This document shows, piece by piece, positions 16,885 to 35,095 of a stretch of DNA of 44,428 nucleotides. A program made the position numbers and the translations under genes. The notes below the pieces were generated by a model that was not told where the DNA came from, ran no database searches, and worked only from the letters and a program-made list of their open reading frames with translations. How positions within the stretch are numbered: the stretch's first letter is position 1; the number at the start of each line of letters is the position of its first letter. This stretch comes from Nanobdellota archaeon (GTDB lineage Archaea > Nanobdellota > Nanobdellia > Pacearchaeales > GW2011-AR1): contig JAHJSH010000023.1 in the NCBI GenBank assembly GCA_018830525.1, positions 1-44,428 of the forward strand, given 5' to 3'.

Positions 16885-16893
16885 AATTATCTA

Positions 16894-16934
16894 TACCCCT
16901 ACACATATTTGAATCTTTCTATTTTGTAGGGGTA
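16894..16934 (-). promoter_or_regulatory. Fic promoter with 10-bp inverted repeat
   Basis: tacccctaca (16894-16903) and tgtaggggta (16925-16934) are perfect inverted arms separated by 21 bp. The spacer holds, on the minus strand, tagaaagattcaaat, the TATA/BRE position about 25 nt before ATG 16884. The same arrangement, with other arm sequences, precedes the MNT gene (29729-29767). It is probably an operator for autoregulation. Confidence 0.65.
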
Positions 16935-16988
16935 AGGAAAATGTGAGTTGTTTTTATTTCCTGTTGGATGCAATAACATGCGATAATA

Positions 16989-17109
16989 TTTATAAATCAA
17001 AGCAGGCTTAATAAAAGTATAAACAGCAACGATAAAAACAGGGCAAAAATACCCCTGATTATGCCACAATGTCCTTGTCGTCGGCAGGGGCATGACGCCA
17101 TCTTGACCA
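16989..17109. repeat. accessory-region repeat element, copy 1 (possible ncRNA)
   Basis: 16989-17054 aligns without gaps to 28738-28803 (about 59 of 66 bases), and gtcggcaggggcatgac (17080-17096) recurs at 27666-27682. The segment starts with a plus-strand TATA (tttataaatc) and lies directly upstream of the first Fic gene, just as copy 2 lies directly upstream of the second. It ends with ccatcttgacca, whose reverse complement appears next to copy 3. A short non-coding RNA divergent from fic, or a dispersed repeat. Confidence 0.6.
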
Positions 17110-17124
17110 AATCGTGAGAACTTT

Positions 17125-17409
17125 TTAATTTAATATTATACTTTCAGGACTCCAACCTTTAGGAATTTCATATCCTTTATCTAATAACTTTGCTTGAATA
17201 ATTCTGTCCATTACAAATGTTCTTTCATCGTCTCTTAAATGGCAATAAGCAGTTATATAATCTTTATGTAATTGATAAATATCTATTATCCTATACTTAA
17301 CTTCATCAGATGATAAACTATAATATTTAATTTTAATACTTCTTTTTTGCTTAAACGCTTTCTTCAATAACCTTTTAATCTCAGCCGATTCTCTTGCATA
17401 ATTTTCCAT
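17125..17409 (-). CDS. WYL-domain protein
   Basis: 94 residues. IKIKYYSLSSDEVKYRIIDI then YQLHKDYITAYCHLRDDERT and FVMDRI follow the WYL domain (PF13280) pattern: beta strand, Arg before the central strand, then the Tyr-x-x-Ala-Tyr-Cys-x-x-Arg segment and R-F/V-x-x-DRI. WYL domains bind ligands or nucleic acid ends and control many defence and stress loci. Here the domain stands alone, without an HTH. It is 7 nt downstream of the AlbA_2 regulator gene, so the two probably act together, the neighbour providing the DNA-binding HTH. Confidence 0.8.
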   Translation of the reverse strand: MENYARESAEIKRLLKKAFKQKRSIKIKYYSLSSDEVKYRIIDIYQLHKDYITAYCHLRDDERTFVMDRIIQAKLLDKGYEIPKGWSPESIILN

Positions 17410-17416
17410 ATTTTAT

Positions 17417-18778
17417 TTAATCTTTTAGAATTTCCCAACTTCCGCCCTTTGCTCCACCAACTCTTTTTAACAATCCTTTTTCTTTTAATTTAGAAATATT
17501 ATTCCTAATATTTTTTTCATTAATCCCAATAATTTTACTCAATTCACTTTGAGTAACAAACTTATTTTTTTCCATTTCAATGAGAATATTTCTTTGATTT
17601 TTACTTAATCTTTCTAGGTCTTTTTCTAGGTCTTTTTCTAGGTCTTTTTCACCCTCTTTTTTCTCTCCAACTTTCTCCCTTTCAAAAGTAACTGTGAAAA
17701 AACCAGTACTCTCAAAATCAACCTTCAAGCCATATTCCTTCATGGAATTCCTAATTCTTTGAATTCCTGTTCCAGCTTTCTCGACATAAGAAGTTCTTGA
17801 CAAAAGATCAAACAAAAGCTTATTTCTAGATAAACTCATTTTCCCAAGATCTCCTTCCTTTAAGCCCTTAATCAACCCACCAGGACTACTTACCTCAACC
17901 CTATCAATAAAAATATTAATTTGAATATGTCCATTGGAAAAATAATCTCTATGAATAAAAGCGTTCATCAAAGCTTCACGAATTGCATTCTTTGGCAATT
18001 CCAATTTTTCTGTTCTATATCTCTCAATAATATATTTCGTATTTAATTTAGAAATAATAAAATTATAAGCACTTTCGTAATTAGAAATCAAATCTGAATC
18101 AAATTCCTTTTTATCAATTATATTACTTGAAGTTCCTTCAAATAAAACACAAGTAACTTTTCCCTGCAAAAAGAATTTAGAGATATTATCACAGAACATC
18201 AAAACTCCTGCATTGACTAAGTAATCATTTTTCAATAAACCCAGATTTTCCAAAACTGTTTCTCTTTTTTGATTTTCTGTAATACTTGCCAATTTTAGAA
18301 AATCTCTAAATTTATTTTCTTTAAAATCCTTTTCTAAATTAAACTCTTTATTTAGTTTTTCATCAAAAGTAATTAATCCTTCTTCTTGGAAAAATGCTCG
18401 TAACTCATCTCTGCTTAATTTTTGAGAATTTGCCCCAACCCTCAAATAGTACTGTCCAGCATATGAATAAGGTTTATTTTTTCCTTCAGGAATATTAATA
18501 ATTACTAAATTGTCTTCCTTTTCAATTTCTATGTTTAATGTTGGCTCTATTGTTCTGGCGATTGTTTGAAGCTGTGAATTTTGAGAGTTAGTTAAATTAA
18601 ATCCTTTAATCTTTCCATCATCACTAACTCCAAGAATTATTTTCCCTCCGCTTTCATTAGCAAAGGCACACATTTCTCTACCTAAGCTTGGCATATTAAA
18701 ACCCTCTTTAAATTCCAACTTAATTCCTTCTCCTGTGTTTATTAAATCTTTTATTTCGTTTGTCATAGTATTATTCAA
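17417..18778 (-). CDS. AlbA_2/Schlafen-type ATP-binding regulator with C-terminal winged helix
   Basis: 453 residues. Residues about 10-130 form an AlbA_2 (Schlafen AlbA, PF04326) domain: LEFKEGF, EMCAFANESGGKIILGVSDD, YYLRVGANSQKLSRDEL. Then a HATPase_c_4-like region (ELPKNAIREALMNAFIHRDY ... VEVSSPGGL ... RNKLLFDLLSRTSYVEKAGTG) and a C-terminal winged helix (QRNILIEMEKNKFVTQSELS onward). Between them lies a Lys/Glu-rich linker with three near-perfect EKDLEKDLEKDLE units encoded by an 18-bp repeat (about 17620-17650). This is a common accessory-region regulator of uncertain trigger. It is paired with the WYL gene. ATG 18778; MTNEIKDLI two codons later is an alternative. Confidence 0.88.
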   Translation of the reverse strand: MNNTMTNEIKDLINTGEGIKLEFKEGFNMPSLGREMCAFANESGGKIILGVSDDGKIKGFNLTNSQNSQLQTIARTIEPTLNIEIEKEDNLVIINIPEGKNKPYSYAGQYYLRVGANSQKLSRDELRAFFQEEGLITFDEKLNKEFNLEKDFKENKFRDFLKLASITENQKRETVLENLGLLKNDYLVNAGVLMFCDNISKFFLQGKVTCVLFEGTSSNIIDKKEFDSDLISNYESAYNFIISKLNTKYIIERYRTEKLELPKNAIREALMNAFIHRDYFSNGHIQINIFIDRVEVSSPGGLIKGLKEGDLGKMSLSRNKLLFDLLSRTSYVEKAGTGIQRIRNSMKEYGLKVDFESTGFFTVTFEREKVGEKKEGEKDLEKDLEKDLERLSKNQRNILIEMEKNKFVTQSELSKIIGINEKNIRNNISKLKEKGLLKRVGGAKGGSWEILKD

Positions 18779-18934
18779 TATTTTATATTATAAAAAACTA
18801 ACTTATCTTTATTTATATTGTTTTTGCCCCTTATACATAGAGTATATATACATATATACGGAGACTGACTTCTCGCCCATTTTTTGCATTAAAACCCGAC
18901 GACAAAACCCATTTTACATCCTAAAAATCTGATG

Positions 18935-20011
18935 TCATTTTTTGACTAGTTTTTCGATGATTTTGCACACCCCCATTCGAGAAGTGACCTGCCCATATTT
19001 TCTATATTTTTTAGCTAAATTTCTATTAGTTACAATAAAATACCAATTTCGACCATACTTATTATTCAGTAAACTGACTTTCTTCTTTAATTGATCCATC
19101 TTAGCAAGTAAAGTTCCAGTCTCAATTTCAAAAGCATAAATTTTATAATCAACCTCAAAAGTTATATCTGCATCTCTTGTTTCATGAAAATAAACTTTAT
19201 TCACATTAGTTTGCTGATTTAATAGGTCTCCTATCCTACCAACTAAAAATGTATGTGTTGTGGAATGGTTTAATATCTGCTTTACTAGAAAATTTGTATT
19301 CTCTTTGTAAATTGGATCATATTCATTAACTTCTTTGAAATCCTCTTTCTTCAAAATTTCAATCTCCTCTGGCTTTAGTTTATCTGATTCATAAATTAGA
19401 TTCTCATTAGGATCTAATCTTTCTAAAATAATTTTATTTTTATTCTCGTTTTTTAACTCTTCTTGAAATCTCTCACTTCTTAAATCCTGAATCTCTTGAG
19501 TTATTTTTTCTTTTTTAAAATTGTATCTATTAAATTCTTCTTGATGCAAGTTCTTTTCTAAATAATCATTTGCTTCAATTAATTTAGTTTTAATCTTAAC
19601 TTCAAATTTATTTTCTGTTTCTTCTGAAAGATATAAGTTATCTAATTCCCCTATAAATTTTTTTAATTCTTTTGAACCTAAATATTCTAAATTCTTTTCA
19701 AGCCATTGTTCAATCTTATAAGATTCATCTTTTAATTTGTCATTTCTTATTTGAATCTTAATAGTTTCTTTATGATTTTTAATTTTATATCTAATAAATA
19801 GAATAATCAAACCAATAAACACCAAACCTCCTAACAAAAGTTTAAATTCAATTGTCTTCCAAATAGCAATCAAAATTTTAATAAAAGAAGGATTTTTCTC
19901 CCAAAATGAAATTAAGGGATCATAGATTAAGTATTTTAAAAAAAGAATTCCACCTAAAGATAAAATAATTATTTCATTATTGTCCACTTGTGAGTATTTC
20001 AAATCCCCCAT
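18935..20011 (-). CDS. membrane-anchored PD-(D/E)XK-like protein
   Basis: 358 residues: two membrane helices near the N-terminus (about 12-30 and 56-74), a charged coiled-coil stretch (about 80-220) and a C-terminal globular domain. This domain contains RDADITFEV (Asp282) then YAFEIETGT (Glu295, Glu297), strand KYGRNWYFIVTNRNL and YGQVTSRMGV. Asp ... Glu-x-Glu on adjacent strands is the core layout of PD-(D/E)XK nucleases, though the Lys is replaced by Glu. The gene overlaps the recombinase upstream by 35 bp, so the two are one unit. Function unknown; mobile-element maintenance or defence is possible. Confidence 0.65.
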   Translation of the reverse strand: MGDLKYSQVDNNEIIILSLGGILFLKYLIYDPLISFWEKNPSFIKILIAIWKTIEFKLLLGGLVFIGLIILFIRYKIKNHKETIKIQIRNDKLKDESYKIEQWLEKNLEYLGSKELKKFIGELDNLYLSEETENKFEVKIKTKLIEANDYLEKNLHQEEFNRYNFKKEKITQEIQDLRSERFQEELKNENKNKIILERLDPNENLIYESDKLKPEEIEILKKEDFKEVNEYDPIYKENTNFLVKQILNHSTTHTFLVGRIGDLLNQQTNVNKVYFHETRDADITFEVDYKIYAFEIETGTLLAKMDQLKKKVSLLNNKYGRNWYFIVTNRNLAKKYRKYGQVTSRMGVCKIIEKLVKK

Positions 20012-21143
20012 ATAATTTATTTGTCAAAAAACCAATCTGTTTCATCTGAATCTTAATTGCATCCATTTCATCCCTTAACATTTTATTTTCATTTTCAGTA
20101 CTAACTAATCTTTTTTCTATCTCTGTTTTAGTAACATCAATTAACAAATCTTCCTCGGAAATAGTATCCCTCATCCCCAGAAGCTCAGAATAATAATGAA
20201 TCTTATCTGACTTCTTCCATCCAAATCTGAATTTTAATGCTGATTCTGATTTATACCTAGGAAGCCAATAACAACAACTAATATGCCTAAAATCATACAT
20301 TGTTATTTGAGAATATTTCTTACCTGCAAGACTTGGTTTATCTCCAAAAACATTTTTTCCAAGTCTTTTCAAATATCTATTAATAACTTCATGATTTTTT
20401 CTAAATATATAATCTTCTTGCTTTAATTTCTTAGATTCAACATATTCTTTTAATATTTCAGAGCAAAGCATTAGCTTGATTCTTCTTCCAAATGTTTTTG
20501 AAATCTCATCTCTGATATTAAGTTCTTTGTAGTCTTTGTATAAATCACTTACTTTAATATTCATTAATTCAGTAGGACTTCTAATTCCAGAATCAAATAA
20601 AAACCAAATTAAAACTTTATAATCATATTGAGCATTTTCACATAATTGTCTTACTTGTTTTTCATCCAAATAACACCATTCAGGTTTAGTTCCTGAAGTA
20701 TCTAAATAAATAGTAATGTCTTTAATTTCATTATCTTTCTTTTTTTCAACTTTTTCATACCAGTGCCAAAATGCTTTGAAGATTTTTGCATAATCTCTAA
20801 CAGATTTATAGATTCCTTTATTAGCTTTTCTTATCTCGCCTGATCTCATTTTAGTGAAAAATCCTATTAATTGCTCTTCAGAAATATTAGTTATTTTATC
20901 TAAATTATATCTTTTTTCAAAATGTTTAGCTAATAAAACCATTCTATTCTTAAGGCTGTTAAGCCTTGTCGGGCTTCGTGAGCCCTTTTTATTAGTTATT
21001 GATATGTTTATACCTAATTCCATATCATTAAGATATTGTAATATTATTTTAGAATTATAATCAGATATTCCAGAGATGCCTGAGTGATTAATCGATTTCC
21101 ATTTTTCCCATTTTTCTTTGTTATTGTGTGGGTCGAACTTCAT
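19977..21143 (-). CDS. tyrosine recombinase / integrase
   Basis: 388 residues. An N-terminal SAM-like core-binding domain (about 25-135) precedes the catalytic domain: LLFDSGIRSPTELMNI-type box with Arg188 (FLFDSGIRSP), box II YDFRHIS with Arg286-His287, and the C-terminal KSDKIHYYSEL with the candidate nucleophile Tyr317 or Tyr318. A C-terminal coiled-coil (about 335-375) is additional. The usual first His of box II (HxxR) is Tyr283. Such enzymes integrate archaeal mobile elements. No tRNA gene is visible in the window, and the target site is unknown. Overlap with the next gene suggests a conserved pair. Confidence 0.88.
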   Translation of the reverse strand: MKFDPHNNKEKWEKWKSINHSGISGISDYNSKIILQYLNDMELGINISITNKKGSRSPTRLNSLKNRMVLLAKHFEKRYNLDKITNISEEQLIGFFTKMRSGEIRKANKGIYKSVRDYAKIFKAFWHWYEKVEKKKDNEIKDITIYLDTSGTKPEWCYLDEKQVRQLCENAQYDYKVLIWFLFDSGIRSPTELMNIKVSDLYKDYKELNIRDEISKTFGRRIKLMLCSEILKEYVESKKLKQEDYIFRKNHEVINRYLKRLGKNVFGDKPSLAGKKYSQITMYDFRHISCCYWLPRYKSESALKFRFGWKKSDKIHYYSELLGMRDTISEEDLLIDVTKTEIEKRLVSTENENKMLRDEMDAIKIQMKQIGFLTNKLYGGFEILTSGQ

Positions 21144-21233
21144 CTTAGTCAGTGTTGTGTGTGGATGGAAGGTATTTTTAAATCTTGTCGAGAAGGAAAG
21201 GATGCGATGGGAGTGATGGGTGAAGCTACTTTT

Positions 21234-22202
21234 TTATTCAAAAACCATCTTATTACTAGGAAAAACATAATCTTCCCCCATAATTGCTGTTTCTACATTA
21301 TTAATAATCTCACTAAACTTTTCAGTTAATTTAGAAATAATCTCATTATATTCTTTATAACTTTTACACATTATTTCTAATTCTATGTCCCAAGGAGAAA
21401 TTTGTTTTACTAAATGTATTATATTTTCTTGATTCTCACAATAAATAACCAACCCCCTTAAATCATTATTATTTATATTTTTAAAATACAGAAAAGTCTT
21501 ATAAAATTCATATCCTAATTCTTCATAATTAATAGCGATTGTGTATCTTTTAATAATCCCTAATTGTTCCATTTTCTTAATCCTATTCCTTACTATGTCA
21601 ACACTTGTATTATTAGTATAAGCAATAGAAGCAACATTTTCCCTAGAGTTTTTAAATAATAATTTTAAAATCTTAATACTTATCTCATCTAATTCCTTAT
21701 CTTCTGGATTTTCAAACATTGTTTCATATTTTGTAGGAGTTTTATATAAGAAAGTTTTATCATGATAATGAATACTTACTAAACTTGCTGTTTTACTATC
21801 TAATATTAAATCTTTAAACTTACTAAATATCTCATTTTTAAGTTCAAAAAATTCATTATTTGATTTAACAAAAAAAGTTAATCCTGCATTCCAAGAGCCT
21901 TCTGCAATACCTAACCAGAATAATCTCTTATCTTTTTTTACATATTCAATAAAAGCCTTCTTTTTTTCAGGGATATTAGATAAATTAAGATATATTTTGG
22001 TGGTCTGATATCCAAGTTTAGTTGGATCAATCCAAGTGGTAAAACCTAAGATAATCTTATCTTCAATTAATTTTTTTATCCTGTATCTCACAGATTCCTT
22101 ACTTTTTCTCACAAGCTTAGCTAATTTTGTATCTGGGATTCTCGCATTCTTGTCTAATTCAAATAATATTCTTTTGTCAATGTTATCAAGTTTATATGCC
22201 AT
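21234..22202 (-). CDS. double Lrp/AsnC-type transcriptional regulator
   Basis: 322 residues made of two Lrp-like halves. HTH 1 (residues about 5-50, IDKRILFELDKNARIPDTKL and VRYRIKKL) is followed by a RAM-like ligand domain. HTH 2 (about 170-220, LDEISIKILKLLFKNSREN and VRNRIKKMEQLGIIKRYTI) is followed by a second RAM-like domain. Duplicated Lrp proteins are common in DPANN and euryarchaea. It is divergent from the 22317 cluster across a 114-bp spacer, which makes it a candidate regulator of that cluster. Confidence 0.85.
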   Translation of the reverse strand: MAYKLDNIDKRILFELDKNARIPDTKLAKLVRKSKESVRYRIKKLIEDKIILGFTTWIDPTKLGYQTTKIYLNLSNIPEKKKAFIEYVKKDKRLFWLGIAEGSWNAGLTFFVKSNNEFFELKNEIFSKFKDLILDSKTASLVSIHYHDKTFLYKTPTKYETMFENPEDKELDEISIKILKLLFKNSRENVASIAYTNNTSVDIVRNRIKKMEQLGIIKRYTIAINYEELGYEFYKTFLYFKNINNNDLRGLVIYCENQENIIHLVKQISPWDIELEIMCKSYKEYNEIISKLTEKFSEIINNVETAIMGEDYVFPSNKMVFE

Positions 22203-22316
22203 ATTAGTAAATAGTTGGCTTTCTTTATAAATATTTCCATTTATTTACTAAAATAAGACAATAATGTTTAATTATATTGGATATGTAACTATTGTATAGG
22301 AGTTAAATAAAGTAAA

Positions 22317-22577
22317 ATGGAAAACAAAACAAATGATTCAGCAAAGGCAACCAATGTGGCAACAATTTTTGCAGAATGGACCCTAGACCAACTAAGATTG
22401 AAAGATATCAATGGGCTTGAAGAAAAAGCTGTAGGATATTGGAACTCAGATTGCTTAAGATTAGAAGAAGGTCTTGAAAGAGTAAAGCAAACAACTAGTT
22501 ATGATAACGCTACAGAATTAACAAATCTAGCTGTAGGATTAATGAAAATTTATGAGGGAGTTCCATATGGGAAATAA
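22317..22577 (+). CDS. hypothetical 86-residue helical protein
   Basis: Acidic, mostly helical protein (TNVATIFAEWTLDQLRLKD, GLEEKAVGYWNSDCLRLEEG) without membrane segments. ATG 22317 follows an SD-like taggag (22298-22303). It overlaps the start of the receiver-like gene by 11 bp, so translation is coupled. No family recognised. It may be a partner of the receiver-like protein, analogous to a small phosphotransfer or adaptor subunit, but no conserved His motif is visible. Confidence 0.65.
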   Translation: MENKTNDSAKATNVATIFAEWTLDQLRLKDINGLEEKAVGYWNSDCLRLEEGLERVKQTTSYDNATELTNLAVGLMKIYEGVPYGK

Positions 22578-23232
22578 AAAAATATTAGTAGTTGAGGATA
22601 ACCTAGAAGAAGCTAAATTTGCTTTAGAGCAAATTAAAAAATTCAATTTAGAAGGAAGATTAGCTCAAGATTTTGATTCTGCAATACAAGAATTAAACAA
22701 TCATCCAGATTATGTTTTATCAGATTTATTCTTTCCTGCTGGAAGAAATATTAATCAAAGTCATTATATTGAAAGAGTTCTGCCTTTATACGAAAATTAT
22801 CTATCAAAATTTCAAAAAAAGGATAAGGGAGTTTTGTCTCAGGCAATAGAAAATGTTTCTAAAGTATTTCAAACAACACCTGAAAAATATGTTGAAGAAA
22901 TACTTCCGTCACTTAATAATCCTAAAGAAGTGGTTGAAATGTCAAGAGATGCAGTTTATGGAATAGAAAATTATTCAAAATACAAAAGATTAGTAGAGTT
23001 TATTGAAGAAATAAAACAAGGTAAAAACTTACCTTATGGTTATTTTCTAGCAGAGGAAACTAAGGGGATGAATATTCCTACAAGGATAATTACCTCTACA
23101 AACCACCATGACATAACTTTTGAGCCTATCAGAAATATTTTGAAAGCACCTTACTACGATAATTTGATTGAAGGAAATAAAAATTGGCAAGGGGCATTAC
23201 AAAATGTCTTAGCAAATCCCGGGAGTGATTAA
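22567..23232 (+). CDS. response-regulator receiver-like protein with large insertion
   Basis: From ATG 22567 (MGNKKILVVEDN) 221 residues; the ATG at 22552 in the same frame contains the SD (gaggga) and is less likely. Receiver features: ILVVEDN with Glu10/Asp11, and DYVLSDLFFPAG with candidate phospho-Asp53. Then an insertion of about 90 residues (70-160, helical), and the receiver resumes: YGYFLAEETKGMNIPTRIIT with STNHHDITFEPI. The insertion between beta3/alpha3 and beta4 and the lack of an output domain are unusual. No histidine kinase is in the window. Likely a stand-alone receiver working with the two flanking small proteins. Confidence 0.7.
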   Translation: MGNKKILVVEDNLEEAKFALEQIKKFNLEGRLAQDFDSAIQELNNHPDYVLSDLFFPAGRNINQSHYIERVLPLYENYLSKFQKKDKGVLSQAIENVSKVFQTTPEKYVEEILPSLNNPKEVVEMSRDAVYGIENYSKYKRLVEFIEEIKQGKNLPYGYFLAEETKGMNIPTRIITSTNHHDITFEPIRNILKAPYYDNLIEGNKNWQGALQNVLANPGSD

Positions 23233-23233
23233 A

Positions 23234-23746
23234 ATGACAATAAATTTACCAAAATTTTTTGATATACGCGAAGCAACAAGAGATATAGCAGAATTTCATC
23301 TACAAGAAGGATGTATGTTTCAACCAGTAGATGAAGATAAAGTTGCTGATTATTTCAACAAATTCTTAGCAGAAAATCCAAAGGTGAAAGAAATTGAAGG
23401 ACTTGTTGATAGACTTCATGAAAGTGTTAAACTAGGTTCAAGAATTACTGCACTTGATTACAACAAAGACCAAAAAATTGGTTCTTATGTGTTAAATAGA
23501 AACGGTTTTATTGGACCTGCATCATCAGTGGTTGAAGTAGCTACAATAGGAGCAAATACTCTTGAGAGAGGATATGAACAAAATTATATCAGATTTGGAA
23601 ATGCAGGTAATGGAGTAGTTCTAGGAGATTCATATTGTGCTATGAGACTTGATAAAGTATCTGCTGAAAAAAAGGATAACAGTCTAATTTTAAAAGCATT
23701 TTATTCAGAAAAACCACAATTCAACATAGAAAAAATATTAAAATAA
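23234..23746 (+). CDS. hypothetical 170-residue protein
   Basis: From ATG 23234 (MTINLPKFFDIREATRD); a GTG at 23225 is an alternative, and cccgggag (23219-23225) may act as SD. Soluble alpha/beta protein: helical N-terminal half (IAEFHLQEGCMFQPVDEDKV), then a strand-rich half (SYVLNRNGFIGPASSVVEVA, NGVVLGDSYCAM). No family recognised. Co-transcribed with the receiver-like gene, and convergent with the methyltransferase gene with no space between the two stop codons. Confidence 0.65.
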   Translation: MTINLPKFFDIREATRDIAEFHLQEGCMFQPVDEDKVADYFNKFLAENPKVKEIEGLVDRLHESVKLGSRITALDYNKDQKIGSYVLNRNGFIGPASSVVEVATIGANTLERGYEQNYIRFGNAGNGVVLGDSYCAMRLDKVSAEKKDNSLILKAFYSEKPQFNIEKILK

Positions 23747-24529
23747 TTATTTTTTAGCAAGAATTATATCAAAATGTTTTTCTGATTTAAAAGACATTTC
23801 TTTAATACTTGAAAATCCTACTTTTCTAAGCATATTCATTAATTCTTTTTTTGATAAAAGATAAGTTATGTTAGGTAGACCTATTTCTTTTCCTGTTTTA
23901 TCACGCAAAAGCATTGCAGAAGATCTTATATTCAATTTATTTTTAATCTCATTATAAAAAATCAGATCATATTTTTTATCTTTTATCTGTATTTCTACGA
24001 CCTTAGTTTTATGTGGTTTTTCACTATCTTTAAATTTATCAATATACAAAAGTCCTCCATCCTTCAATAAATCATAGAATATTTTTAAGGTTTCTTCATA
24101 TAACTTCAGGCTTTTCTTTGCATCAACTTTTTGAGACTTATTCCAACCACCTGCAGCATAAATAAATGAGTTACCTCTGCAAAAACTAAAATCATAATAA
24201 TTCTTTTTATAATGTTTAGGTATCTGTAACCAAGTTAATTTTTTACATCTTAAGTTTAATTTCTTCTTTTTTGCTTTTCTTGAGAAAACATTTATCTCAT
24301 CTTGCATAGAATCCATACAATCAATTTTATATCCTTTCTTTGTAAGCTCTAATGCAGGAAATCCTGTTCCAACACTAACATCAATAATTTTAGATTTTTT
24401 ACTTATTTTATTTTTCTTAAATAATTTTAGAATTTCATTAACATATTTTTTGGTATCATATAATAAATTATATAGGCAGGCATCCCACAACTCTGCAAAC
24501 CTTGGTTCTTTTTTAAATTTAAGTTTCAT
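23747..24529 (-). CDS. class I SAM-dependent methyltransferase, stand-alone paralogue
   Basis: 260 residues. Motif I KIIDVSVGTGFPALEL (about 48-63), acidic loop IDCMDSM, then FSFCRGNSFIYAAGGWNKS and GGLLYIDKFKDSE. It aligns along its full length with the C-terminal 260 residues of the adjacent fusion protein (LLYDTKKYVNEI / LLYNPEEYVNEI, RGNSFIYAAGGWN / RGNTLIYAEGGWN, MLLRDKTGKEIGLPN / MLLRDKKGKEVGLPN). General similarity to glycine/sarcosine-type small-molecule N-methyltransferases is possible but uncertain. Its ATG overlaps the fusion gene's stop by 4 nt (ATGA), so the two proteins are made together. Confidence 0.85.
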   Translation of the reverse strand: MKLKFKKEPRFAELWDACLYNLLYDTKKYVNEILKLFKKNKISKKSKIIDVSVGTGFPALELTKKGYKIDCMDSMQDEINVFSRKAKKKKLNLRCKKLTWLQIPKHYKKNYYDFSFCRGNSFIYAAGGWNKSQKVDAKKSLKLYEETLKIFYDLLKDGGLLYIDKFKDSEKPHKTKVVEIQIKDKKYDLIFYNEIKNKLNIRSSAMLLRDKTGKEIGLPNITYLLSKKELMNMLRKVGFSSIKEMSFKSEKHFDIILAKK

Positions 24530-27500
24530 TTTTTAGCCAACCAAACAACAAAATGTTTTTCATTTCTTAATTTAATTTTTTTAATAGAACTAAATCCTAC
24601 TTCTTTCAACAAATCTTCCATTTCATCTTCAGTTAAATCATAAGCCATGTTAGGCAATCCAACTTCTTTGCCTTTTTTATCTCTTAGAAGCATTTGAGCA
24701 TATCTTACATTTTTTTCTGGCTTTCTTTCAACAGAAAAAATAATGTCTTTTATTTCTCCAGTAGACTTAATATTTAGTTTAGCAACAACTTTTTTTGTAG
24801 GAACCTCTGAATCCCTATATTTGTCTACATAAAGATATCCCCCTTTCTTCAATAAATCATAATAAATTTGAAGAGTTTTCTTAAGGGTGCTTAAACTTTT
24901 CTTTTTATCAACAAGTTTTTTCTCATTCCAACCCCCCTCTGCATAAATTAATGTATTCCCCCTATTAAATAACATATCAAAAGAATTTTTCTTAAAATGT
25001 TTTGGCAAATCTAACCAGGTTGATTGAACTACTTCGTGCTTGATTCCTTTTTCCTTAAGAACTCCTAAAAATGGTTTAATCATTTCTTTGCTTTTATCTG
25101 CGGTTTTAAGATTATAGCCTTTCTCTAAAAGTTCTGTGCAAAAGAATCCTGGACCAACACAAGTGTCTAGAATTTCTGATTTTTTTGTTATTCCAATATT
25201 CTTAAATAATTCTTCAATTTCATTAACATACTCTTCAGGATTGTATAGTAATTTATATTCAGCCAGTCTCCATAAGTCAGGAAATTCTGGTTCTTCATCA
25301 ACATCTAATTCCTCAATAGTTCCCTTATCAGATAGGTATTTTATCTGAGCCCCTGTAGCAAGGTATCTCGTAGAATCAGGACCCAAGGGGATATTAAAAA
25401 ATCTAAAAGAACCCTCATTTTTTTCTTGAAGCATAAGCTTTGCATATAGCTCAGCCCCCTTTGTAACTGCATCATCGCACATTGCAGGAGTAAGCATCAC
25501 TAAAATTTTATGTTTAGCTTTTGATTTTGGACTAAGAACTCTTTGAGAAGTATAATCAAAAATAACTCCTTTTGCTTTTCCAAATAATTCAGAAATAAAC
25601 TGACAAACTTCAACAATACAGAATTTTCCACCAGTCTTAGAATTAAAAGCATCAAATCTGCAAGTTTTAATTTCTTGATTATCCAATATTTTTATTGATA
25701 ATTCCCAAGCATCTTTATTCAGTGTATAATTAATAATTCCTTCAAAGAATTTTTTATTTTTTTCAACAAATTCCTTAAATCTCTGTCTCAGTTTAGTTTC
25801 TTTTGTAAACTTCTCCTCTTCAAAAGATAAAATATCTGTTTCTTTTAAACCAGCATTAGCCAATAATTCCTTATATTTTTTAGGAATATTTGGTTTTTTA
25901 TATTCTGCTAGCAATCCATTTCTATAATCTTCTGCTGTTTTCTTTGTAGTGTTTGTAGGAGAAAGTCTAAGTTCATTTATTCCAGTAGTGTCGTTGGCAA
26001 TTGTAACTAATTTAGCATCCAAATCCATTTCCTTTAATTCTTTCACAATCTCACAACCAAATTGCCAGGTAAATAAAGGAAAAGTAGTCATTCCAAAACC
26101 ATCCAACAGATTATGAAGTCTATCTGGAACTAGTGGTTTAATACTTGGATAGAACTTATTTTCTTGCATGTCTGGAATCCCTAAAAAATGACCAGCCATA
26201 ACAATAATTTCTGTTTCTTCTGGCTGATAAACTGCAGATTTTATTTTCTGTATTATTTGTTTTTTTGAGTTAGCTAAGAAGATATTTTTATAATAATTCA
26301 TATTTCTAAGGGGTTCTAAATTTTTATTTTTAATTAATCCTCTTTTTTTATCTAAAAACATTTGAAGCTCTTGAATAAATATTTCAATATCCTGTTCAGT
26401 ATTATAAACTCCAAAACTAACTCTAACAGTTTCTGTCCCTAACATGTCAATCAATGGAAAAGCACAATGAGAACCATAACGGATAGCAATTTTTCTTTTA
26501 TCAAGATACTCTCCTATTTCTTTTGTTGAAAACTCATCAATAGAAAAAGAAACAACCCCTGTCCTTTGGTTTATTTTTTCAGAACCATGAATCTTAATTC
26601 CCTGAATTTTTTTTAGTCTTTCAATAATATTAGCAGTTAATTCATGTTCGTGTTTTTGTATCTCATCAAATCCAATAGATCTTATGAAATCTATGGCTTT
26701 TGATAATCCAACGATATTCGAAGTATTTGGAGTTCCGCCTTCTAAAATAATTAATCCCTGCTTAAAATCTATAATTAGGTCTGTATAATCTTCTTCATCA
26801 ACCATCGAAATAGAATTAACTGTTCCCCCTCCCGCCCTTACTGGTTTGAGTAGGGGAAATATTTTCTTTGAAATAAATAAAACTCCCACACCACAAGGAC
26901 CATACATTTTATGACTAGAAAATGCAAAAACATCGCATTTAATTTTTTTAATATCAACAGGAATATGTGCAACTGACTGAGCCCCATCAACAATATAAAT
27001 TATATCTGGATGATTCTCCTTTAGATATTTTCCAATTTCCTCAACAGGATTTATTCCTCCAAGAACATTAGATACATGATTTATTGCAACAATTTTGGTC
27101 TTAGGAGATATTGCTTTTTTCAATTTATCCACATCTACAACATAGTCCTTTAATTTAACCACCTTCAATTTAGCCCCCTTTCTTATTAATTTCTCAAAAG
27201 GCAACATGTTTGAGTGATGCTCAGATATTGGTAGAATTATTTCATCGCCTTTTTCTATAATATGGGCGATGGCATCAACTGCCAAGTTTATAGAATCTGT
27301 AGTATTATTAGTAAATACGATCTCTTTATCAGAAGAATTAATAAAACGAGCGATATTTTCTCGAGCTTCTACAAGCCATTGCTCATTTTTTTCAGCTACA
27401 ATATGAGCTCCCCGATGAGGGTTCCCACGATATTCTAAAACCTGTTCAACTGCCCTTATCACAGAATCTGGAACTTGTGTTGTTGCAGCATTATCTAAAT

Positions 27501-27558
27501 AAACTAAATTATTCTTTCTAAAAAAATCAAACATAGATTTTAATTCAATATTTGCCAT
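24526..27558 (-). CDS. fusion: cysteine desulfurase, unknown domain, SAM methyltransferase
   Basis: 1010 residues in three parts. (1) Residues 1-405 are a complete SufS-type class V cysteine desulfurase: LDNAATTQ, PLP-contacting HH at 114-115, DGAQSVAH (Asp191), Lys217 in SSHKMYGP and the active Cys365 in YGSHCAFP. (2) Residues about 411-735 match nothing I know; they include VYQPEETEIIVMAGHFLGIP, FPLFTWQFGCE and a Cys-bearing KFCIVEVCQF. (3) Residues about 750-1010 are a SAM methyltransferase (ILDTCVGPGFFCTELLEKGY, RGNTLIYAEGGWN). Sulfur mobilisation plus methylation in one chain suggests synthesis of a methylated thio-compound or thio-modified nucleotide/peptide. No partner such as SufU, MnmA or a radical SAM enzyme is adjacent. 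Leader start ATG 27558. Confidence 0.88.
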   Translation of the reverse strand: MANIELKSMFDFFRKNNLVYLDNAATTQVPDSVIRAVEQVLEYRGNPHRGAHIVAEKNEQWLVEARENIARFINSSDKEIVFTNNTTDSINLAVDAIAHIIEKGDEIILPISEHHSNMLPFEKLIRKGAKLKVVKLKDYVVDVDKLKKAISPKTKIVAINHVSNVLGGINPVEEIGKYLKENHPDIIYIVDGAQSVAHIPVDIKKIKCDVFAFSSHKMYGPCGVGVLFISKKIFPLLKPVRAGGGTVNSISMVDEEDYTDLIIDFKQGLIILEGGTPNTSNIVGLSKAIDFIRSIGFDEIQKHEHELTANIIERLKKIQGIKIHGSEKINQRTGVVSFSIDEFSTKEIGEYLDKRKIAIRYGSHCAFPLIDMLGTETVRVSFGVYNTEQDIEIFIQELQMFLDKKRGLIKNKNLEPLRNMNYYKNIFLANSKKQIIQKIKSAVYQPEETEIIVMAGHFLGIPDMQENKFYPSIKPLVPDRLHNLLDGFGMTTFPLFTWQFGCEIVKELKEMDLDAKLVTIANDTTGINELRLSPTNTTKKTAEDYRNGLLAEYKKPNIPKKYKELLANAGLKETDILSFEEEKFTKETKLRQRFKEFVEKNKKFFEGIINYTLNKDAWELSIKILDNQEIKTCRFDAFNSKTGGKFCIVEVCQFISELFGKAKGVIFDYTSQRVLSPKSKAKHKILVMLTPAMCDDAVTKGAELYAKLMLQEKNEGSFRFFNIPLGPDSTRYLATGAQIKYLSDKGTIEELDVDEEPEFPDLWRLAEYKLLYNPEEYVNEIEELFKNIGITKKSEILDTCVGPGFFCTELLEKGYNLKTADKSKEMIKPFLGVLKEKGIKHEVVQSTWLDLPKHFKKNSFDMLFNRGNTLIYAEGGWNEKKLVDKKKSLSTLKKTLQIYYDLLKKGGYLYVDKYRDSEVPTKKVVAKLNIKSTGEIKDIIFSVERKPEKNVRYAQMLLRDKKGKEVGLPNMAYDLTEDEMEDLLKEVGFSSIKKIKLRNEKHFVVWLAKK

Positions 27559-27639
27559 CTTTTAAAATAGAAGAGAACTCGGATATTTAAAAGTTGTCCT
27601 ATATCTTTTTATTTACCTATAGGCTCATTGCAGAACACT

Positions 27640-27690
27640 CTCCATCTGGTCAAGATGGTCGAGACGTCGGCAGGGGCATGACACCTTTCT
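27640..27690. repeat. accessory-region repeat element, partial copy 3
   Basis: ccatctggtcaagatgg forms a hairpin and is followed by gtcggcaggggcatgacacc (27666-27685), one mismatch from 17080-17099. Located between the fusion gene promoter and the 3' end of the second Fic gene. Further right, ttgtctaca occurs twice (about 27711 and 27728), as it does again before the HEPN gene's 3' end (about 28894 and 28906). Confidence 0.55.
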
Positions 27691-27754
27691 GGCATTTAGG
27701 GAGACTACTTTGTCTACAATAAATAATTTGTCTACAAATATGTCTATATTAGAA

Positions 27755-28660
27755 TCAAACCAAATATTTCTCTAAAATATAACTAATAAATCGCTTTTCA
27801 TCTTTTTCTATTTGATGATAATCTAATGCATTATAATAATTTTCCAAATCTTCTACAGGAATATCTATCAAAGGATAACCTTTTTTCCATAAAACCCAAT
27901 TCATTAAAAGTCTTGATAATCTAGAGTTTCCATCAGCAAACATCTGCATAGAAATTAATTTTAAATGAATTAATGAAGCAAGTTCTAGGGGATGTAATTT
28001 TCTGCTATTATCTTTATACCATAGAAAAAAGTTTTTTATTTCTCTGTCTAATTCATCCCATTTTGGAGGAACATAAGGAGTTCCTGCAATTTGAATATTT
28101 CTTTTTAATTCACTTCTAAGTTTTCCCGCTATTTCATTATTAACACCTTTCATAAGAAGGCTATGCAATCTTTTTATAAAGTTTAAATCAAAAGTTCCCT
28201 TATATTTAGTAATCAACATAAACCCTTGTTCATGATTTTCTATTTCTTTTGCAATTCTTAAGTTTTTAAATTCTGCAGGAATAATTCCTTCCTTTAATAT
28301 AAGAAAAGTTTGTCTTAATGTAATATCTATCCCAGAAAGTTTACTACTATCATAAGTATACCTGATCATAAACTCTTCAATTTTCTTCTTTTTTTCGATA
28401 TTACTTAATTTTTTTAATTCCTTAACATAGTTTTCTTTCTTATTTTCTATACCCCCTAATTCTTTTTGAGAAAAATATTTAGTGCCTTTTTTATTAATTT
28501 CTTTTAAAAATTCTTTTTCAATTTTCTCTAATTTCTCTTTTGAAGGAATTACTTTTCCAAGATATTTTGTCTTATGAATTATTTTATCTCCATTACGAAT
28601 ATTATGGACAAGTCTATAGTAATCATTTCCCTTTAATTTAAATTTCTCAGTATAAACCAT
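27755..28660 (-). CDS. Fic-like protein with degenerate active site
   Basis: 301 residues. N-terminal 45 residues (YYRLVHNIRNGDKI and TKYLGK) are the module shared with the MNT, solo and first Fic proteins. A helical linker follows, then a Fic fold with inhibitory-like YDSSKLSGID (103-112) and the Fic loop IHLKLISMQMFADGNSRLSR (231-250). Against HPFxDGNGR the catalytic His is Gln239 and the second Gly of GNG is Ser246, while Asp243, Asn245 and Arg247 remain. AMP transfer is therefore doubtful; an antitoxin-like or nucleotide-binding role is possible. ATG 28660 is about 25 nt after TATA atttaaatag and is leaderless. Confidence 0.85.
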   Translation of the reverse strand: MVYTEKFKLKGNDYYRLVHNIRNGDKIIHKTKYLGKVIPSKEKLEKIEKEFLKEINKKGTKYFSQKELGGIENKKENYVKELKKLSNIEKKKKIEEFMIRYTYDSSKLSGIDITLRQTFLILKEGIIPAEFKNLRIAKEIENHEQGFMLITKYKGTFDLNFIKRLHSLLMKGVNNEIAGKLRSELKRNIQIAGTPYVPPKWDELDREIKNFFLWYKDNSRKLHPLELASLIHLKLISMQMFADGNSRLSRLLMNWVLWKKGYPLIDIPVEDLENYYNALDYHQIEKDEKRFISYILEKYLV

Positions 28661-28666
28661 AAAATA

Positions 28667-28709
28667 GTTATGGGCTACATCTATTTAAATGTTGTGGTTA
28701 TGGGCTACA
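28667..28709 (-). promoter_or_regulatory. Fic-like gene promoter with 13-bp direct repeats
   Basis: gttatgggctaca occurs at 28667-28679 and 28697-28709, one on each side of the minus-strand TATA atttaaat (28683-28690). On the minus strand the copy after the TATA begins TGTAGCCCATA, at the same place as TGTAGTCATA and TGTAGGGGTA in the related promoters, but here the arms are direct rather than inverted. Probable operator. Confidence 0.6.
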
Positions 28710-28737
28710 AATAACCTATCTCCCTATCTCGACAATC

Positions 28738-28856
28738 TTTATAAATCAAAGCAGTCTTACAGAAATAATAAACAGCAACGATAAAAACAGGACAAAAATA
28801 CCCTACAATATAACATTTTACCTACTTACCCAGCAGGGGCATGTATTACATGTAAT
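28738..28856. repeat. accessory-region repeat element, copy 2 (possible ncRNA)
   Basis: 28738-28803 aligns with 16989-17054 without gaps. agcaggggcatg (28832-28843) corresponds to the second conserved block of copy 1. A 12-bp palindrome attacatgtaat lies at 28845-28856. It stands immediately upstream of the degenerate Fic gene, as copy 1 does for the first. Rest of the gap to 28920 is AT-rich with the ttgtctaca pair. Confidence 0.6.
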
Positions 28857-28920
28857 CGGAGCGGGGATTTTATTAATTCTACATAATTAATTTTGTCTAC
28901 AAAATTGTCTACATTTAGAA

Positions 28921-29268
28921 TTAGCTTTCTTTTAACTCGTTTTTTATGTTTAATATATCTTTTTTTAAACCAGGCAAATTTTCTTTAATAACTTTCCATA
29001 CAGTTTTTAAATCAACTCCAAAATAATGATGCATTAATTTATCTCTCATTCCGGCAATCCTAATCCAAGGAATATCTGGATATTTTTTTCTAAATGAATC
29101 TGGGATATTTTTAACAGCTTCCCCAATTATTTCAATTTGCCTTATAACTGCACTTTGCTTTTCTTTATTTTTTAAAAAATAATTCTTAGAAGAATTTTTA
29201 ATAAAAGATTCAATATTTTGAATACTTTCTAAAATATGTTCAATAAAAATTAATGGTTCTTTGCTCAT
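28921..29268 (-). CDS. hepT: HEPN-domain toxin (HepT/DUF86 family)
   Basis: 115 residues of helical HEPN fold. RDKLMHHY (Arg75, His80, Tyr82) is the RX4HXY signature of HepT ribonucleases, with the Tyr that the cognate MntA can AMPylate to silence the toxin. AVIRQIEIIGEAVKNIP is the usual first-helix motif. ATG 29268 overlaps the stop of the MNT gene by 4 nt (ATGA), giving antitoxin-toxin order as in type VII MntA-HepT systems. Confidence 0.9.
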   Translation of the reverse strand: MSKEPLIFIEHILESIQNIESFIKNSSKNYFLKNKEKQSAVIRQIEIIGEAVKNIPDSFRKKYPDIPWIRIAGMRDKLMHHYFGVDLKTVWKVIKENLPGLKKDILNIKNELKES

Positions 29269-29720
29269 ATTATTCTTACCTCTTCATTTAGAATCCTTTC
29301 TCTTAATAAGTGATTGATCCCTCCATATGTAATTAAATCAATTTTCTTTCGAAGTTTTTTCTTTAGTTCTATTTCTAATCCTACTAAATCCAATAAACTA
29401 CCATCAAATTCAATTAAAATATCAACATCACTATCTTTTCTTTGTTCTCCCTTAGCATAACTTCCAAAAATTCCAGCTTTTTTTATATTATTTTTCTTCA
29501 AAATTTCTTTTATTTTTGGTTTAATTTTTTCTAATTTTTTATTGATTTTTAAGGGGCTTAGTTTTTTATCTGCTTGTTTTTCTTTGCTTTTTAGTTCTTC
29601 TTCTTTTAGATTGACTCCTAAATAGATTCTTTCTTTTCTTATTTTACTGCCTTTTCTTAAAGACTTAGCTCTGTAATAATATTTTCTATTATTTTTCTTT
29701 TGCATTTCTGTGTGAACCAT
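29265..29720 (-). CDS. mntA: MNT nucleotidyltransferase antitoxin with extra N-terminal domain
   Basis: 151 residues. Residues about 75-151 are a minimal nucleotidyltransferase: GIFGSYAKGEQRKDSDVDIL with Gly86-Ser87 and Asp98/Asp100 (GSX10DXD), then FDGSLLDLVGLEIELKKKL. MntA enzymes AMPylate the HepT Tyr and neutralise it. Unlike a usual MntA (about 100 residues), residues 1-45 (RKYYYRAKSLRKGSKIRKER and YLG) form a separate basic module found also in the two Fic proteins and in the 49-residue protein. Given the operator-like promoter it may be the DNA-binding part. Leaderless: TATA atttataaat 29740-29749, ATG 29720. Confidence 0.9.
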   Translation of the reverse strand: MVHTEMQKKNNRKYYYRAKSLRKGSKIRKERIYLGVNLKEEELKSKEKQADKKLSPLKINKKLEKIKPKIKEILKKNNIKKAGIFGSYAKGEQRKDSDVDILIEFDGSLLDLVGLEIELKKKLRKKIDLITYGGINHLLRERILNEEVRII

Positions 29721-29728
29721 GTAATATT

Positions 29729-29767
29729 TATGACTACATTATTTATAAATCTTTCTATGTAGTCATA
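29729..29767 (-). promoter_or_regulatory. mntA-hepT promoter flanked by perfect inverted repeat
   Basis: tatgactaca (29729-29738) and tgtagtcata (29758-29767) are perfect 10-bp arms around the minus-strand core tagaaagatttataaat. The TATA sits inside the loop, so a dimer binding both arms would block TBP/TFB. This is the best example of the shared operator plan of this region. Confidence 0.75.
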
Positions 29768-29816
29768 ATAACTAAAGATTATTAGAGGATGGAAATAAAT
29801 TGTAGACAAAATGTTT

Positions 29817-29865
29817 CTATTATTCACTTAATCTTTAGTTTTTATAAACTTTTAGTGAATAATAG
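29817..29865. repeat. 12-bp inverted repeat around a TATA-like core, no gene
   Basis: ctattattcact (29817-29828) and agtgaataatag (29854-29865) are perfect arms enclosing tttttataaac. It has the same plan as the neighbouring operators, but neither strand has a gene starting at the right distance. Probably an orphan promoter-operator left by a lost module, or a regulator of the mntA or 49-residue gene. Confidence 0.55.
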
Positions 29866-29874
29866 CCTTGCGTG

Positions 29875-30024
29875 CTAATTAGCCTTTGATTTAAGCTTTT
29901 TAAGAACTGTTTCAGCTTTACCTAGATAGAGAATAACTTTTTGTCTTACTTTATTCCCTTTTCTAATTGATTCTACAATATAATAATAAATTCTATTGCC
30001 TCGCTTATTTGCTCTGATAAACAT
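29875..30024 (-). CDS. 49-residue solo protein with the shared N-terminal domain
   Basis: Minus-strand ATG 30024 encodes MFIRANKRGNRIYYYIVESI then RKGNKVRQKVILYLGKAE and ends LKKLKSKAN. YYY-x4-SIRKG-K-x6-YLGK is the same pattern as the N-termini of the MNT protein (YYYRAKSLRKGSK ... YLG), the degenerate Fic protein and the restored first Fic protein. It is strongly basic, consistent with nucleic-acid binding. TATA acttatataatg lies about 25 nt upstream, and again TGTAG (tgtagtgttcacta) follows the TATA. Either a stand-alone regulator or the stump of a larger gene; the stop is clean and the next bases are not homologous to the others. Confidence 0.6.
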   Translation of the reverse strand: MFIRANKRGNRIYYYIVESIRKGNKVRQKVILYLGKAETVLKKLKSKAN

Positions 30025-30174
30025 AAAATATAGTGAACACTACATTATATAAGTTTTTCTATGTTATGAGTGGAGCGAGAAAACTCACATATTTTAATAT
30101 GTGGATGAGAGCGATTGGTTGAACAAGTCATCTAGTTGTCTTCGATAAATATATATTCTAAAAAATATTAAAGA

Positions 30175-30270
30175 AAGTAGGGAAGTTGACCCTACTTCTT
30201 TGTAAGATTAGATGTAGTTGTAACTTTCTGAAACTAAATAAACTTTGCGGTCGCGCGAATGCGCTGCCGC
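30175..30270 (+). promoter_or_regulatory. two hairpins upstream of tnpA
   Basis: aagtaggg (30175-30182) pairs with ccctactt (30190-30197), a terminator-like stem. gcggtcgcgc (30247-30256) pairs with gcgctgccgc (30261-30270) with one mismatch, just before ggag (30273) and ATG 30282. IS200 elements are known to repress their own transposase with an upstream terminator and an SD-proximal hairpin; this matches that plan. Confidence 0.6.
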
Positions 30271-30281
30271 GTGGAGAAAAA

Positions 30282-30719
30282 ATGAAACAAAAACTATTGT
30301 TTAGCAAGAGCGCTGAAAAATATGAGCGAGGAAATCACTTTGTCGGTGTGTCGATGTGGGAGTTTGAATGGTGTACAAAATATCGTTACAAGATGGCACG
30401 AAAAGAGGAGAATGAAAGACTTCTCGATGCGTGTATAAGAAGAACAGCGTCGAAAAATGGAATAAAGATAATTGAACTTAATGTTCAACCAGAACATATT
30501 CATTGTATTGTTTTGGTAAAATTCGATATGTCCGTGTCGAAAGTATTCCAATTTCTAAAGGGGGGTTCTTCGTATTTGTTTTTCAAACATCAAGAAAAAG
30601 CAAGGCTTCGTTATCCTCGAGGACATTTTTGGAGTAAGGGAAAGTTTGCATCTTCTGTTGGTTTTGTTCAACTAGATGTTGTGCAAAATTATGTCAGAAA
30701 CCAAGATGAACATCACTAG
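30282..30719 (+). CDS. tnpA: IS200/IS605 family Y1 transposase
   Basis: 145 residues from ATG 30282. FEWCTKYRYK in the first strand, HUH motif in VQPEHIHCIVLV, GRSSY-like KGGSSYLFFK and the catalytic Tyr in VVQNYVRNQ (Tyr near residue 139). Size and motif order match Y1 HuH transposases that move single-stranded DNA between replication forks. The frame is open 32 codons upstream but that part overlaps the control hairpins and is not homologous. Appears intact. Confidence 0.92.
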   Translation: MKQKLLFSKSAEKYERGNHFVGVSMWEFEWCTKYRYKMARKEENERLLDACIRRTASKNGIKIIELNVQPEHIHCIVLVKFDMSVSKVFQFLKGGSSYLFFKHQEKARLRYPRGHFWSKGKFASSVGFVQLDVVQNYVRNQDEHH

Positions 30720-33487: not shown

Positions 33488-35095
33488 ATGAAAAAGAGAG
33501 GAATTTCTGCAGTTATTGCGACAGTTTTGATTATTCTCATTGTTGTCGCTGGTGTGGGAATTGTTTGGATGCTTGTCATTCCTATGTTGCAAAACTCTTC
33601 GCTTTCTATTTCTAGAGAGAGGACTCAGGTTTCTATTATAATTTCTAAGGGATATACTGTTTATGATAAGGATAAGGCTTTTGCATTTGTTCAAGTTGAG
33701 AGGGGAGATGATAATGAGAGTATTAGTGAATTAAATTTTATTTTTGAGATTGAGGGGAATAGTGTAATTTACGAAACTATAGATGCCCCTATAAGAAATG
33801 GCCAAAAGGTATATTCTTTTAATTTCAGTAGGGATAGGATAGTTGGGATTCCTTCTTTTGTTTCAGTTGCTCCAGTTTATCTTTCTGGTGGAAGGAAGAT
33901 AGTTGGAGATATTACTTCTAGGGTTGCGATTCCAATTCAATCTGCAACAGTATCATTGATGGATGATATTAATTCTAAGTCTAATAAGGTTATCTCTGGG
34001 GGTTATACACAAGGTTATTTTACTTTTCAAATAAATACTCATTTAATATCTGGGACTACTTTTTCGTTTCAAGCAGATGATGCTGATTTGTCTGTTGATT
34101 GGGGGGATGACGATCTTAGTATTGAAACTGAAACTGGTTTGATAAGCCATACTTATTTATCAGAGGGTGTTTATGATATTAGTTTAAATGGAAGTGCAAC
34201 CAGAATATCTTATTATGAAGGAACGGGAGATGCTTTGGTAGATATTTTGACAAAGGTTTCTGATGGTGTTACTGGGATTAATAGTGGGTATCAGATGTTT
34301 AGTTATACTTCCAATTTTGGTATAACTCCTTTAAGTGAACCTGCATTTTTTGATGATGTTTCCGGGGGGATTACTTATATGGGATCGATGTTCTCCAGCT
34401 CTCAATTCAACCAAGACATCTCCTCTTGGGATGTCTCCAGCGTTACTGATATGGGATCGATGTTCTCCAGCTCTCAATTCAACCAAGACATCTCCTCTTG
34501 GGATGTCTCCAGCGTTACTAATATGAGGGCTATGTTTTCTCGTTCTCAATTCAACCAAGACATCTCCTCTTGGGACGTCTCCAGCGTTACTGATATGGGA
34601 TCGATGTTCTCTTATTCTCAATTCAACCAAGACATCTCCTCTTGGGACGTCTCCAGCGTTACTAGTATAGGTGGTATGTTCTCCAGCTCTCAATTCAACC
34701 AATCTATCTTCAACTGGGACGTCTCCAGCGTTACTGATATGGGATCGATGTTCTCCAGCGCTCAATTCAACCAAGACATCTCCTCTTGGGACGTCTTCAG
34801 CGTTACTGATATGGGGTCGATGTTTTTAGGTTCTCAATTCAACCAAGACATCTCCTCTTGGGACGTCTTCAGCGTTACTGATATGGGATCGATGTTCTCC
34901 AGCTCTCAATTCAACCAAGACATCTCCTCTTGGGACGTCTTCAGCGTTACTGATATGGATTATATGTTCCTCAACTCTCAATTCAACCAAGACCTATCCG
35001 GATGGTGCGTTTCGGAAATTTCTGAACCCTTTTATTTTGATTATAATACTCCTTCTTGGACGTTGCCAAGACCTGGGTGGGGGACTTGTCCATAA
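33488..35095 (+). CDS. second pilin-anchored DUF285 adhesin
   Basis: 535 residues, paralogue of the 6157 protein. Class III signal MKKRG then [20 protein letters not shown], pilin-like beta domain (to about 150), [20 protein letters not shown] with the PKD-like [15 protein letters not shown], then eight 24-residue [20 protein letters not shown] repeats and a ninth divergent one ending GWGTCP. It lacks the Cys-rich linker of the first protein and its repeats are closer to one another than to those of the first. TATA ttttaaataatc (33457-33468) gives a leaderless start at ATG 33488. Probably an alternative tip adhesin of the same pilus. Confidence 0.9.
34400..34975 (+). repeat. eight tandem 72-bp DUF285 repeats
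   Basis: Eight in-frame 72-bp units starting at tctcaattcaaccaagacat, several almost identical over their full length including silent sites (for example the first, second, third and sixth to eighth). Codons are C-ending (ttc aac caa gac atc tcc), unlike the gene's 5' half. Homogenised array, likely variable in copy number. Confidence 0.92.

Follow-up and report, generated by a model that had tools for sequence, protein, structure and literature searches.

A SufS-type cysteine desulfurase fused to an undescribed archaeal domain and a methyltransferase in a Nanobdellota archaeon

A 44,428-nucleotide contig of a Nanobdellota archaeon (JAHJSH010000023.1 of assembly GCA_018830525.1, hereafter the window) contains an uninterrupted open reading frame (ORF) in which a SufS-type cysteine desulfurase domain, a middle domain here called AGHF and an S-adenosylmethionine (SAM) methyltransferase domain (MT1) form a single polypeptide of 1,010 residues. 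An ATGA overlap at 24526-24529 joins this fusion gene to the gene of a second methyltransferase (MT2), which is 49% identical to MT1 (Table 1). The fusion is real and unusual, and is not explained by any known family: it is a variant of the desulfurase-fusion enzymes that is built on an undescribed archaeal domain. This architecture, including the overlapping methyltransferase paralogue, had been described in a first-pass annotation of the window, which named two findings that would undo it. Neither was obtained. The middle domain was found to match no known family, and nothing points to a sequencing artefact, since the GC content is even along the locus (27-32%) and both domain joins are in frame. 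The locus is tentatively proposed to encode a multifunctional biosynthetic enzyme that, assisted by the second methyltransferase, would make a small methylated metabolite containing sulfur, most probably one derived from an amino acid.

The desulfurase domain was found to be a complete SufS-like enzyme, as first annotated. The Pfam model Aminotran_5 covers residues 19-394 of the fusion (E 3e-115), and alignment with solved SufS structures and with the SufS proteins of relatives identifies K217 as the pyridoxal phosphate (PLP) lysine and C365 as the catalytic cysteine. The features of group II (SufS/CsdA-type) desulfurases are present, namely the PLP lysine, the cysteine in the RxGxHC motif and the conserved active-site His, Asp and Gln residues. 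Despite this shared fold and catalytic apparatus, the domain departs from canonical SufS in several respects. Its top NCBIfam model, SufS TIGR01979, gives 387-390 bits and does not reach the curated cut-off of 475, whereas the SufS proteins of four relatives score 543-623 bits, all above the cut-off. An insertion of 7-8 residues relative to canonical SufS was observed near residues 250-270, ahead of the conserved E(A/G)GT motif. Each SufS gene inspected in relatives has suf genes or the gene of a SufU-like acceptor beside it, and most lie in sufB/D-S-U-C operons, and one relative (G039, L141:1483-3126) carries a SufS fused to a SufU-like domain inside a suf operon; the window domain, in contrast, is not encoded in a suf operon and its chain lacks a SufU-like acceptor. 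The source genome is a 963-kb draft in 35 contigs (86% complete; the window is contig C22), in which SufB/SufD (SUFBD_core) was not found, while 14 of 14 control genomes were positive. A separate IscS-IscU pair is encoded on contig C3. The initial remark that no dnd or iscU gene adjoins the fusion thus holds at the locus but not for the genome as a whole, where this IscU is encoded. Because the domain falls outside the canonical subfamily and outside a suf operon, because SufB/D was not found in this genome and because an IscS-IscU pair is encoded separately, a role other than Fe-S cluster assembly is likely, and the domain would be a working desulfurase released from that process.

The middle domain (residues ~405-756) matched nothing in Pfam, NCBIfam, PHROGs or PADLOC. 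A single-sequence search retrieved one weak relative, in genome G055, and the G055 protein then retrieved another in G072; the other scans with the middle domain as a single query, run against viral and genome contigs, gave no match. A profile of these three sequences retrieved further proteins in G398, G410, G495, G524, G204 and G229. A marginal homologue in G254 (L081) was not counted as a secure member, since this match and others near E 1e-4 do not rise above the noise, as judged from an unrelated ATPase (L085, 1.2e-4). When a profile of seven standalone proteins that excluded the window sequence was used, the AGHF domain was recovered at E 4e-13 and the whole fusion chain at 1e-11; the best of 300 shuffled controls reached E 0.38. 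Across the ten aligned sequences four residues never vary (G456, H457, D523 and C647, numbered as in the fusion), C647 being the one invariant cysteine, and E587 and R591 are nearly invariant. Outside the window, AGHF was always observed as a standalone protein of about 234-262 residues, the G524 gene being split by contig ends. The family is rare (seven of 371 genomes sampled across the phylum). About ten genomes carry it, each from the archaeal phylum to which the window belongs, with named members in Woesearchaeota/Nanoarchaeota. Searching with an alignment of close members returned only genomes already found among the genome contigs and nothing among the viral contigs, and tblastn with standalone AGHF proteins gave no match in plasmid and phage records. 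Judged by these sequence comparisons, AGHF is an undescribed archaeal protein family.

The history of AGHF is suggested by its regulator. The window encodes a tandem Lrp/AsnC-type protein whose four closest homologues (71, 67, 60 and 54.5% identity; G055, G398, G204 and G229) each lie divergently beside an AGHF gene. A fifth homologue (51%, G090) adjoins an unrelated ORF, and no other paralogue exceeds 38% identity. In addition, the intergenic DNA upstream of the window regulator aligns with the AsnC-AGHF intergenic regions of four genomes, where variants of its inverted repeat occur. As the four closest regulator homologues adjoin standalone AGHF genes and the promoter regions can be aligned, the pairing predates the fusion: by this comparison the association of regulator and AGHF is old, and the fusion is not. 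The search for the same fusion and for conserved neighbours, proposed in the first-pass annotation, yielded no second fusion but recovered standalone AGHF genes paired with this regulator. Three small ORFs that take the place of AGHF beside the window regulator are unlikely to be members of the fusion system. The N-terminus of one of them (22552-23232), KKILVVEDN, reads like a response-regulator receiver, with no Pfam receiver match and only a sub-threshold TseH-like one. More generally, many of the AsnC paralogues of these archaea seem to have one neighbouring enzyme gene as their partner, radical SAM-like genes among them (L068 and L069).

Modelling of the middle domain, also proposed at the outset, was informative for a standalone relative rather than for the window domain itself. 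AlphaFold gave a weak model of the latter (pLDDT 59, pTM 0.66) and a confident alpha/beta model of the 240-residue G072 protein (pLDDT 90, pTM 0.89). From these models, AGHF is an alpha/beta domain, probably of Rossmann-like type. In Foldseek, the window-domain model matched ArgRS (E 2e-5), then CysRS, MshC and MetRS and, lower, AlbC, with TM scores of at most 0.40. The confident G072 model gave no significant match; its PDB list mixes methyltransferases, TyrRS and class I LysRS, and in a viral structure library ArgRS ranked first at a non-significant E of 0.01. A profile search of PDB sequences with AGHF gave no match. These synthetase matches would fit an alternative in which AGHF is a class I aminoacyl-tRNA synthetase-like or cyclodipeptide synthase (CDPS)-like enzyme of the HUP type with an amino acid, ATP or an aminoacyl-tRNA as substrate, so that the fusion would make a thiolated, methylated amino acid or dipeptide. 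Methyltransferase genes neighbour CDPS genes in bacteria, and this, together with AlbC in the fold search, led to the CDPS reading being considered. In our reading of the models, AGHF resembles CDPS in size and in the order and length of its secondary-structure elements, and a VDDH strand lies at the position of the CDPS VDTH. However, the structural matches came from the weak model, while the confident one had none of significance, and membership of the CDPS family was rejected: the hhalign probability was 0.2%, no Pfam match was obtained, and the catalytic Ser is replaced by His. As for the CDPS motifs Y-x3-E and YH/YP, Y178-x3-E182 and Y202 are likewise not conserved in AGHF, and no KMSKS motif was recognised. 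This alternative is therefore considered unlikely, and a class I synthetase-like relation is regarded as a lead and not as a result.

Methyltransferase models of Pfam and NCBIfam match residues ~772-929 of the fusion and MT2. The closest solved relatives for METHYLTRANSFERASES are the uncharacterised SAM methyltransferase 1WZN and glycine sarcosine N-methyltransferase. The SAM domain and a GN(S/T)-type motif of the glycine/sarcosine enzymes (NF051855; 5GWX, 5H02) align with the locus methyltransferases, but the scores, 36-40 bits, are far below the NF051855 cut-off of 350. This resemblance to small-molecule enzymes speaks in favour of a metabolite, and against a nucleic acid, as the product. 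Single relatives of the methyltransferases are scattered across the phylum, and one adjoins an S-adenosylhomocysteine hydrolase gene. Another (G355, L026:8738-10438) has an N-terminal extension that, in our reading, resembles a winged helix, a possible coupling of methylation and DNA binding. Relatives in G351, G446 and G431 (L027, L030 and L031) lie divergently to other AsnC-type regulators. This adjacency was not counted as support because those regulators fall into different paralogue groups; the regulator at L030, which was compared, is 33% identical.

How might these parts act together? The SufS active site and the SAM motifs are intact. In the proposed pathway, the SufS domain would remove sulfur from L-cysteine and hold it as a persulfide on C365, an activity expected from its family and from the catalytic residues observed. 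The persulfide would then move to the AGHF domain, perhaps to the invariant C647, and AGHF would join the sulfur to the substrate. MT1 and MT2, by relationship glycine/sarcosine-N-methyltransferase-like, would add methyl groups to that molecule either before the sulfur is inserted or afterwards. By comparison with the related genomes, AGHF is an old standalone enzyme of these archaea under its own Lrp/AsnC regulator that was fused to its present partners in the window lineage. The effector of this regulator would probably be a substrate or product of the pathway.

The closest functional precedent is the metallopterin-dependent ergothioneine synthase (MES) of Caldithrix abyssi, in which a fused functional desulfurase passes sulfur by a persulfide relay to an unrelated module acting on trimethylhistidine, and which is co-encoded with an N-methyltransferase (PMC9516567). 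Both systems join a desulfurase to a small-molecule module, sulfur-inserting in MES and putatively so here, with a methyltransferase alongside, and MES occurs in anaerobic bacteria and archaea (PMC9516567). MES differs in having a C-terminal NifS/IscS-like desulfurase, a 718-residue metallopterin module and a histidine-specific methyltransferase (PMC9516567), whereas the fusion has an N-terminal SufS-type desulfurase, AGHF as partner and glycine/sarcosine-like methyltransferases, one of them within the chain. No Pfam match to the metallopterin (acetylene hydratase-like) module was obtained in the fusion chain, and no histidine-specific methyltransferase (PF10017) is encoded at the fusion locus. 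A distant PF10017 (EgtD/EasF-type) protein on contig C3 of the source genome (G000, L148:7152-8111) exceeds the Pfam cut-off and scores 88 bits against the EgtD equivalog cut-off of 290.9. The EanA/EanB anaerobic ergothioneine pathway shares the logic of an N-methyltransferase and an oxygen-independent sulfur transferase, but no rhodanese domain was detected in the source genome at E<=0.001 and the locus methyltransferases are not of PF10017. With the PF10017 protein far below the EgtD cut-off and no detectable rhodanese, the known ergothioneine routes are not established in this genome. The dedicated pathway to a methylated thio-product suggested in the first-pass annotation thus gains plausibility from the MES precedent, although it is inferred. 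An extension of this pathway, in which AGHF would represent a new enzyme class that forms C-S bonds and the chain would be a self-contained, oxygen-independent synthase of a thio-betaine-like metabolite (sulfur from cysteine, methyl groups from SAM), having converged on the chemistry of the three described ergothioneine synthase classes without being related to them, is speculative and rather improbable.

Several observations weigh against a dedicated pathway. No second genome with the full fusion was found in scans of the genome collection, so the fusion is a singleton, with the caveat that these scans are insensitive. Standalone AGHF genes were observed without a desulfurase or methyltransferase neighbour and thus lend no independent support to a sulfur function; since they lie beside their own regulator instead, AGHF alone does not imply a sulfur pathway. 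At the window locus, the regulator does not adjoin the fusion gene, which lies 2.3 kb away with its AGHF sequence on the other strand relative to the divergent position, and upstream of the fusion only a half-site with two mismatches, at chance frequency, was found in place of an operator. C647 could also be structural or a different nucleophile. The singleton status and the occurrence of AGHF as a standalone protein away from desulfurases and methyltransferases would also fit a recent operon collapse, in which three enzymes of different or loosely linked roles came to share one chain while still working independently, the desulfurase supplying sulfur in general, AGHF keeping its ancestral role and the methyltransferases acting elsewhere. 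Neutral fusions do occur, as in the SufS-SufU protein of the relative mentioned above. The collapse is nevertheless considered somewhat unlikely: catalytic motifs are kept in all three domains, MT2 is retained in an overlapping operon, and the divergence of the SufS domain from canonical SufS suggests a specialised role. Occurrence of the fusion in a single draft genome would also be compatible with a chimera of assembly or binning, which is very improbable given that the frame is unbroken across both joins, that GC is even, that a second methyltransferase copy adjoins, and that the regulator 2.3 kb away has orthologues adjoining AGHF in related genomes.

A further alternative is that sulfur and methyl groups are placed on DNA or tRNA within a defence or mobile island. 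The neighbours of the fusion include two Fic proteins, a HepT/nucleotidyltransferase pair, an AlbA_2/Schlafen-like protein and an IS200-type transposase, and DndA/SspA models match the desulfurase domain. Those matches are, however, generic for desulfurases, and SufS-type models score far higher. No Dnd/Ssp partner gene was found among the scanned neighbours (Fic, HepT/nucleotidyltransferase, AsnC, AlbA_2 and IS200), the methyltransferases are small-molecule-like, and AGHF has no match to a nucleic-acid enzyme, its standalone relatives being located among housekeeping genes. Modification of nucleic acids is thus quite doubtful, and biosynthesis of a small methylated thio-metabolite is still tentatively preferred.

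Table 1. Positions of the fusion gene, its domains and surrounding features in the window.
Feature	Position	Strand	Remarks
Fusion ORF	24526-27558	minus	1,010 codons
SufS-type cysteine desulfurase domain	26335..27558	minus	residues 1-408; H115 region, H216-K217, C365
AGHF domain	25291..26304	minus	residues 419-756; A455-G456-H457, D523, E587, R591, C647 conserved
SAM methyltransferase domain 1 (MT1)	24529..25290	minus	residues 757-1010; glycine/sarcosine-methyltransferase-like; SAM motif ~798-806; RGN(T/S)LIYA..GWN motif
Second methyltransferase (MT2)	23747-24529	minus	260 codons
Tandem Lrp/AsnC-type regulator	21234-22202	minus	orthologues divergently paired with standalone AGHF genes
Conserved divergent promoter/putative operator region	22203..22316	.	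inverted repeat TTAGTAAATA...TATTTACTAA
Three small ORFs (86, 226 and 173 residues)	22317..23746	plus	not AGHF homologues
Fic proteins (two)	15935-16699, 27755-28660
AlbA_2/Schlafen-like protein	17417-18778
Possible tyrosine recombinase	19977-21143		no Pfam match
HepT/nucleotidyltransferase pair	28921-29720
IS200-type transposase	30186-30719

The stretch around the fusion (15935-30719) is island-like. Elsewhere in the window, a HerA-type ATPase is broken by a LAGLIDADG intein (13240-15663), and G446 has a HerA-like gene that is comparable in length and in its start (L030:559-2979). A LAGLIDADG ORF overlaps the start of an RtcB gene (35284-37595), a possible split or mobile intein. The protein encoded at 33488-35095 starts with a membrane segment and contains numerous DUF285 (BspA-like) repeats that are nearly identical to one another; it is probably surface-exposed.

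What would the fusion mean for these organisms? If the proposed pathway is true, AGHF would be a new protein family for sulfur chemistry, and a dedicated thio-methyl metabolite would be made in tiny archaea that are deemed metabolically minimal. The fusion aside, AGHF and its paired Lrp/AsnC regulator give Woesearchaeota/Nanoarchaeota an orphan pair of enzyme and regulator that is compact and testable. Overall, the fusion offers the first hint of AGHF chemistry.

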